Positions 11,895-12,211 of a DNA stretch of 64,000 nucleotides are shown piece after piece; position 1 is the stretch's first letter, and every line of letters starts with the position of its first letter. Below the pieces are notes generated by a model, which ran no database searches, had not been told where the DNA came from, and saw only the letters and a program-made list of their open reading frames with translations. Both the position numbers and the translations under genes were made by a program. This stretch comes from Flavobacteriales bacterium (GTDB taxonomy: Bacteria; Bacteroidota; Bacteroidia; Flavobacteriales_G; Salibacteraceae). The stretch is taken from assembly GCA_020435995.1 (NCBI GenBank), contig JAGQYO010000001.1:62001-126000 (forward strand). Reading direction: 5' to 3'.

Positions 11895-12101
11895 ATGTAA
11901 GTCCTGTTTTAGGTTTTTATAAAAAATATGATTGGATTTCTTGTTAACATGGATTGTTAAAACCGCGCTAGCAACAGAGTGATTTAACCTTTCCAGAGTT
12001 GTGTTCCTCCAATCGCCGTTGAGGATTTTTGGACATCCCGACGTATTGGTTTTGGTTAATTAAACTTTGCAAAACGTAAGCCTTCATTCTTGTTAGAAAA
12101 C

Positions 12102-12211
12102 TGGTGAGACATACTGGATTCGAACCAGTGACCCCTACCCTGTCAAGGTAGTGCTCCCCGCCCGAACGTACCGTACGGTACGGGCAGGTAAACCAACTGA
12201 GCTAATATCTC
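12102..12211 (-). tRNA. tRNA-Val (GAC) with a hairpin insertion in the D-loop
   Basis: Read on the minus strand, the acceptor GAGATAT pairs with ATGTCTC (one U-G wobble), followed by discriminator A and an encoded CCA (12104-12102). The D-stem is GCTC/GAGC, the anticodon arm CTACC-TTGACAG-GGTAG gives anticodon GAC, and the T-arm ACTGG-TTCGAAT-CCAGT is perfect. The gene is 107 nt without CCA instead of about 74. The excess is all in the D-loop, which is 42 nt rather than 8-9 (see the repeat at 12157-12189). All cloverleaf stems are kept, so it may still be functional if the insert is tolerated or processed; it could equally be a fresh pseudogene. Confidence 0.85.
12157..12189 (-). repeat. Palindromic element inserted in tRNA-Val D-loop
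   Basis: The extra roughly 33 nt is itself a hairpin. Its core, CGTACCGTACGGTACG (12167-12182), is a perfect 16-nt palindrome. Arms 12157-12164 and 12181-12188 pair over 8 bp with one wobble in RNA. I found no second copy of the core in this window. Confidence 0.75.

Follow-up and report, generated by a model that had tools for sequence, protein, structure and literature searches.

Split tRNA-Val(GAC) gene of a Flavobacteriales bacterium: most likely a decayed copy of a GIY-YIG element that homes to tRNA genes

The window, i.e. the whole 64,000-nt stretch of DNA analysed here, carries a tRNA-Val(GAC) gene on the minus strand at positions 12102–12211, on which the sequence, ARAGORN and the Rfam tRNA model agree. 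The acceptor, D, anticodon and T stems and the CCA end are kept, as the earlier note had read from the letters, and its count of 42 nt for the D-loop is also correct (10 native plus 32 inserted nucleotides). ARAGORN and Rfam both place the D-arm badly, and the gene scores only 30.8 bits with the Rfam tRNA model vs. 62–73 bits for the other tRNAs of the window. Read on the minus strand from 12211 to 12102, the gene has three parts, namely: GAGATATTAGCTCAGTTGGTTTA; CCTGCCCGTACCGTACGGTACGTTCGGGCGGG; and GAGCACTACCTTGACAGGGTAGGGGTCACTGGTTCGAATCCAGTATGTCTCACCA. The first (12189–12211, minus strand) is the 5′ part, bases 1–23, whose last base is A21 of the D-loop (sequence, ARAGORN and the alignment of relatives). 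The second (12157–12188, minus strand) is a 32-nt palindrome, CCTGCCCG...CGGGCGGG, that sits precisely between A21 and G22, on the 3′ border of the D-loop; this TA^GA junction is the insertion site of the element family described below. The third (12102–12156, minus strand) runs from G22 to the CCA end (ARAGORN and comparison with relatives).

Alignment with insert-free relatives, proposed as a check in the earlier note, is informative: in about 30 intact tRNA-Val(GAC) genes there is nothing between A21 and G22, and the sequence reads ...GGTTYAGAG... throughout. Because these genes are uninterrupted at A21/G22, the insert is fixed at 12157–12188 and 32 nt; it is indeed palindromic, while the earlier length of about 33 nt needs correction. 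Alone, it folds into a strong hairpin (−18.1 kcal/mol), and it occurs once in the window vs. never in 100 shuffles. At the gathering threshold, Rfam matches a tRNA alone at the split locus and no intron or other RNA element, which rules out a group I intron or another known RNA element as the insert. A genome-wide search for the core palindrome, likewise proposed earlier, yields in the host genome a single further match of 13 nt with one mismatch, beside tRNA-Arg(CCT) in the T-loop of a broken tRNA-Arg. In that neighbourhood (L060, G000:C152), a palindrome at 532–563 lies in the T-loop of a degenerate tRNA-Arg(CCT) 3′ part with no ORF left, and a further remnant with a different hairpin is found upstream of the intact tRNA.

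The split gene does not stand alone. A relic of a GIY-YIG ORF begins 14 bases 3′ of it; a search with the element ORF of a relative matches the window at 11977–12087. The truncated endonuclease ORF (11968–12087, minus strand, 39 aa; PF01541, E=1.4e-7) encodes MKAYVLQSLINQNQYVGMSKNPQRRLEEHNSGKVKSLCC followed by a stop, i.e. the N-terminal half of the GIY-YIG domain, and its C-terminal half is missing. It is about 65% identical to the element ORFs over 37 aa. With PF01541, whose curated cut-off is 22.6 bits, the family ORFs score 56.8–60.5 bits and the relic, which covers the N-terminal half only, scores 32.1 bits; both belong to the GIY-YIG nuclease superfamily. Since its ORF is truncated, the element in the window is immobile by its own product. 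The region at 11895–11967 (no strand) probably holds a deletion junction: neither the C-terminal half of the ORF nor a rebuilt tRNA copy is traceable there, and the stretch from the relic to where the glutamine amidotransferase gene ends has no tRNA-Val match above shuffled sequence. The earlier note had likened the locus to a Rickettsia-type palindrome in a lone tRNA gene; the insertion is real, but the reading as a lone element missed the GIY-YIG element to which the palindrome appears to belong.

Searches of 60 relatives by DNA and protein recovered better-preserved copies of the same arrangement, and 80 ORF loci were collected from named genomes. As the queries were tRNA-linked, the figures that follow describe this subfamily and not all GIY-YIG proteins. 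A same-strand tRNA lies within 500 nt of the ORF at 77 of the 80 loci. As an in-locus control, 85 same-strand tRNAs were counted within 600 nt of an ORF (112 kb in all) vs. none in the remaining 355 kb. All four GIY-YIG matches in the window's own genome adjoin tRNAs, namely: Val-GAC, Val-TAC, Pro-GGG and Leu-TAA. The hosts are Bacteroidota (67), Ignavibacteriota (4) and Chlorobiota (3), together with a single Parcubacteria and a single Microgenomates MAG, the last two subject to caution over MAG binning. In the Parcubacteria MAG (L157) the half-tRNA, palindrome and GIY-YIG arrangement is found at tRNA-Glu(CTC), and in the Microgenomates MAG (L174) a similar one is found at tRNA-Ile(GAT).

The main form of the element (59 of 77 loci) consists of tRNA bases 1–22, the palindrome, a copy of the tRNA from base 23 to anywhere between 33 and 76, an ORF for a GIY-YIG protein of about 75 aa, and a complete tRNA, which often begins a few bases past the end of the ORF or overlaps it. 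The palindrome is usually of the type CCYGCCYG...CRGGCRGG. Fifty of 56 aligned broken tRNA halves end in TA where G comes next in the intact gene (TA^G). The sequence that a broken and an intact copy share mostly begins at base 1 of the tRNA, 0–5 bases upstream being common to both; longer shared upstream stretches occur at some loci, in tandem arrays and elsewhere. In these arrays, two or three units repeat about every 317 nt. The other 18 loci have a mirror form, in which an intact tRNA is followed by the ORF and then by a broken 3′ part with the palindrome in its T-loop, anticodon loop or D-loop. As in the window, a long or full 3′ half separates the palindrome from the ORF at L132, L155, L160 and L189.

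Three further elements were seen in the window's own genome. The one at tRNA-Pro(GGG) (L209, G000:C159, 440–1142) is a second, apparently intact element; its palindrome differs (TCCTGACCGCAGCGTCAGGA), its upstream promoter region is duplicated, and a stretch of Ns spans the repeated unit in the scaffold. The one at tRNA-Val(TAC) (L069, G000:C163) has the mirror form, and the one at tRNA-Leu(TAA) (L078, G000:C170) is interrupted by the contig end. Elsewhere (L094, G045:C65), a GIY-YIG domain of the family type lies in frame within a long ORF resembling the HsdR subunit of type I restriction enzymes, as an intein-like or domain insertion.

Insertion of such an element is seen directly at the yqeY-tRNA-Arg(TCG) site of Flavobacterium, where 29 of 30 loci lack the ORF and one, in F. 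ranwuense (L167/L210), is filled. The bare allele L215 matches the flanks of the filled allele L210 on both sides of GGATA^GAATATC, and the inserted unit consists of the palindrome, a copy of tRNA bases 23–39, the ORF and tRNA bases 1–22. The element has thus entered the D-loop, and the bases 1–22 that it carries have made the tRNA whole again. Among the alleles without an ORF, L229 is a decayed scar with remains of a palindrome, which shows that decayed remnants of elements exist. Presence and absence at one exact site are therefore observed for this relative of the window's element and not for the window's own site: no empty orthologous gldH/tRNA-Val site was found in relatives or sister genomes, which show no synteny here.

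A tree of the ORFs, built from short sequences and with many forks unresolved, places the window relic with the Val/Ala elements of Flavobacteriales. On this tree the anticodon of the target tRNA changes 25 times vs. a mean of 48.1 and a minimum of 42 in 300 shuffles, while host order changes 20 times vs. 24.5 in shuffles. The Arg-CCT clade (SH-aLRT 95) includes members from Chitinophagales, Cytophagales, Flavobacteriales, Bacteroidales and Sphingobacteriales. Anticodon fits the tree better than host order, i.e. the ORF lineages are specialised to their target tRNA and move between hosts.

The palindrome has a wider distribution than the ORF. It is present in 0–20 copies in most genomes searched, and in more in a few, with reversed-pattern controls close to zero; confinement to tRNA elements is ruled out by copies dispersed away from tRNAs. 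At L202, L204, L206, L207 and L208, CCYGCCYG-type palindromes lie in other dispersed repeats or in intergenic DNA away from tRNAs, among them repeats with a nested palindrome of the forms GAGCG/pal/AGTCGAAG and GTTC/pal/CTCGCAATGACG. At L198 (831–850), next to a cluster of Thr-Gly-Tyr-Thr tRNAs, there is a palindrome in what resembles the 3′ end of a broken tRNA, and no ORF accompanies it. Arm positions 3 and 7 alternate between C-G and T-A, which lends weak support to compensatory change across the arms, in counts that include relatives; perfect compensation is ruled out by C-A and T-G combinations that are present too. The palindrome may lie where the broken copy would be cut and protect that copy from cutting or recombination; it could also be an independent repeat drawn to that broken site.

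GIY-YIG homing enzymes cut alleles that lack them and are then copied in by repair. We propose, with high confidence, that a tRNA-homing element of this kind once occupied the window locus and has since decayed, the split tRNA-Val(GAC) being most likely a pseudogene. In this scheme, a small free-standing GIY-YIG endonuclease gene would enter a tRNA gene at the edge of the D-loop (TA^GA, A21/G22), with the palindrome on its left and, on its right, a copy of tRNA bases 1–22 that it brings along. The target tRNA would be broken upstream and rebuilt complete downstream, and the insertion would be harmless because the tRNA is rebuilt from the carried bases 1–22. The enzyme most likely cuts tRNA alleles that lack the element, presumably at TA^G, and homologous repair would then copy the element in. 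A deletion in the window apparently removed the rebuilt tRNA together with the last part of the ORF, and what persists would be the broken copy on the upstream side, with its palindrome and an entire 3′ half. With the split gene a pseudogene, Val codons would be read by tRNA-Val(UAC). Against homing counts the fact that the rebuilt tRNA still has TA^GA, the very site that the donor would have to spare, as does the failure to find a sister genome with an empty gldH-tRNA-Val site.

That the palindrome also occurs outside tRNAs bears on the same proposal, as it may be an independent repeat at these sites. A small palindromic repeat of the REP or nested-palindromic-element type could have entered the tRNA gene with no causal tie to GIY-YIG, and its 0–20 copies in most genomes searched, against controls close to zero, and its nesting in dispersed repeats fit such an origin. 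We consider this improbable, given that a single exact split site recurs in 50 of the 56 broken halves, that, in the Flavobacterium pair of empty and filled alleles, the inserted sequence opens with the palindrome, and that the window copy is accompanied by a GIY-YIG ORF relic. Moreover, the strict pattern TA/palindrome/GA has 12 matches in 395 genomes of the phylum, 7 of which are split tRNAs, and 6 of these 7 lie beside a GIY-YIG ORF; all of the 7 but the window locus are followed by an intact tRNA. More improbable still is an assembly artefact, in which the sequence was joined across the repeats of an element that is in truth whole, its intact tRNA included. The assembly is fragmented (207 contigs), several common tRNA types were not found in it, and the run of N in its tRNA-Pro element spans a repeated unit; yet the junction from the ORF relic to the amidotransferase gene offers no tRNA repeat for a collapse, and the boundary of the palindrome fits the rule of the family exactly.

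Whether the split gene still works is a separate matter. The earlier note had suggested a fresh pseudogene beside a second tRNA-Val(GAC), but no second copy turned up in DNA, tRNA or pattern searches of the assembly, where the single Val(GAC) match is the split gene; one assembly search scored 150 of 286 candidates, and this negative does not rest on it. The proposed count of tRNA-Val genes thus gives one Val(GAC), which is split, and an intact tRNA-Val(UAC). As the sole match, the split gene could be functional and the genome's only GAC reader, its 12-bp hairpin kept as an arm at the edge of the D-loop or removed by processing. All stems pair, bases 56–108 of the 110-nt gene are identical (53 of 53) to an intact gene of another genus (G007), and this perfect 3′ half leaves room for function. 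The cloverleaf with the added hairpin, at −40.1 kcal/mol, is close to the optimum of −42.5 kcal/mol; that optimum, however, pairs the bases differently and opens the D stem. Furthermore, the insertion adjoins A21, a residue of the tRNA core, and nearly all other split copies have an intact copy nearby, so they need no function. Val(GAC) can also be absent from relatives: a pattern search, which could miss diverged genes, found no match in 13 of 45 good-quality relatives, several of them at least 97% complete, and its loss may therefore be tolerable. On balance, we think it unlikely that the split tRNA-Val(GAC) is functional and regard it as probably a pseudogene. The boldest combination, in which a widespread undescribed selfish class cuts and rebuilds tRNA genes and this genome, having lost the rebuilt copy, uses or processes a lone tRNA-Val(GAC) whose D-loop holds the 32-nt hairpin, strikes us as improbable.

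No published description of the element family was found in open-access PMC, a scope that leaves out preprints and most subscription papers; the family is apparently undescribed, within the known free-standing GIY-YIG homing elements. tRNA genes are essential and, in bacteria, are known sites for integrases and group I introns. In Bacteroidota, Ignavibacteriota, Chlorobiota and apparently candidate-phylum MAGs, the tRNA is broken by an element of about 300 bp and restored from the half copy that the element carries. The family would explain odd split tRNAs as well as the ‘GIY-YIG nuclease family proteins’ that are annotated next to tRNAs with no further account of them. It also offers a compact system for how a nuclease spares its own site, and the window locus is a natural experiment on whether a hairpin at the elbow is compatible with a working tRNA.

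Several known systems share parts of this arrangement. Group I introns in tRNA genes are homing elements too, sometimes with GIY-YIG ORFs, but the insert here is 32 nt with no Rfam intron match, the ORF lies outside the tRNA, and splicing is unnecessary because the tRNA is rebuilt. Rickettsia and Wolbachia palindromic elements are likewise short palindromes within genes, whereas the palindrome here goes with a GIY-YIG element at one fixed position in the tRNA, and an intact tRNA normally accompanies the broken copy. In certain mitochondrial endonuclease elements, e.g. in Allomyces atp6, an endonuclease ORF inserted in a gene likewise brings a substitute for the end of that gene, so that part of the gene is duplicated and function is kept; these elements reside in fungal mitochondrial protein genes, in contrast to bacterial chromosomal tRNA genes with palindromes. 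REP elements are GTAG-tagged, short dispersed palindromes with RAYT transposases (PMC3733652). The palindromes here are also short and dispersed, but their neighbour is a GIY-YIG nuclease and not a tyrosine transposase, and their left end is CCYG with no GTAG tag.

The nearest known analogue is SegB of T-even phages. SegB is a free-standing GIY-YIG homing endonuclease whose gene adjoins tRNA genes and which cuts inside them, and it drives tandem amplification via recombination between a tRNA 5′ region and the segB 3′ end (PMC13096335). A phage search gave only matches below 60% identity, none annotated as SegB. The two systems are alike in the GIY-YIG fold, the position of the gene beside a tRNA and the tandem copies. 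SegB is phage-borne, whereas the elements here are chromosomal and bacterial, and they have a D-loop insertion, a half-tRNA duplication that rebuilds the target and a junction palindrome, none of which is reported for SegB in the accessible part of the source (PMC13096335). The elements would fit the SegB scheme by analogy with one addition, namely that the carried bases 1–22 make insertion within the tRNA harmless.
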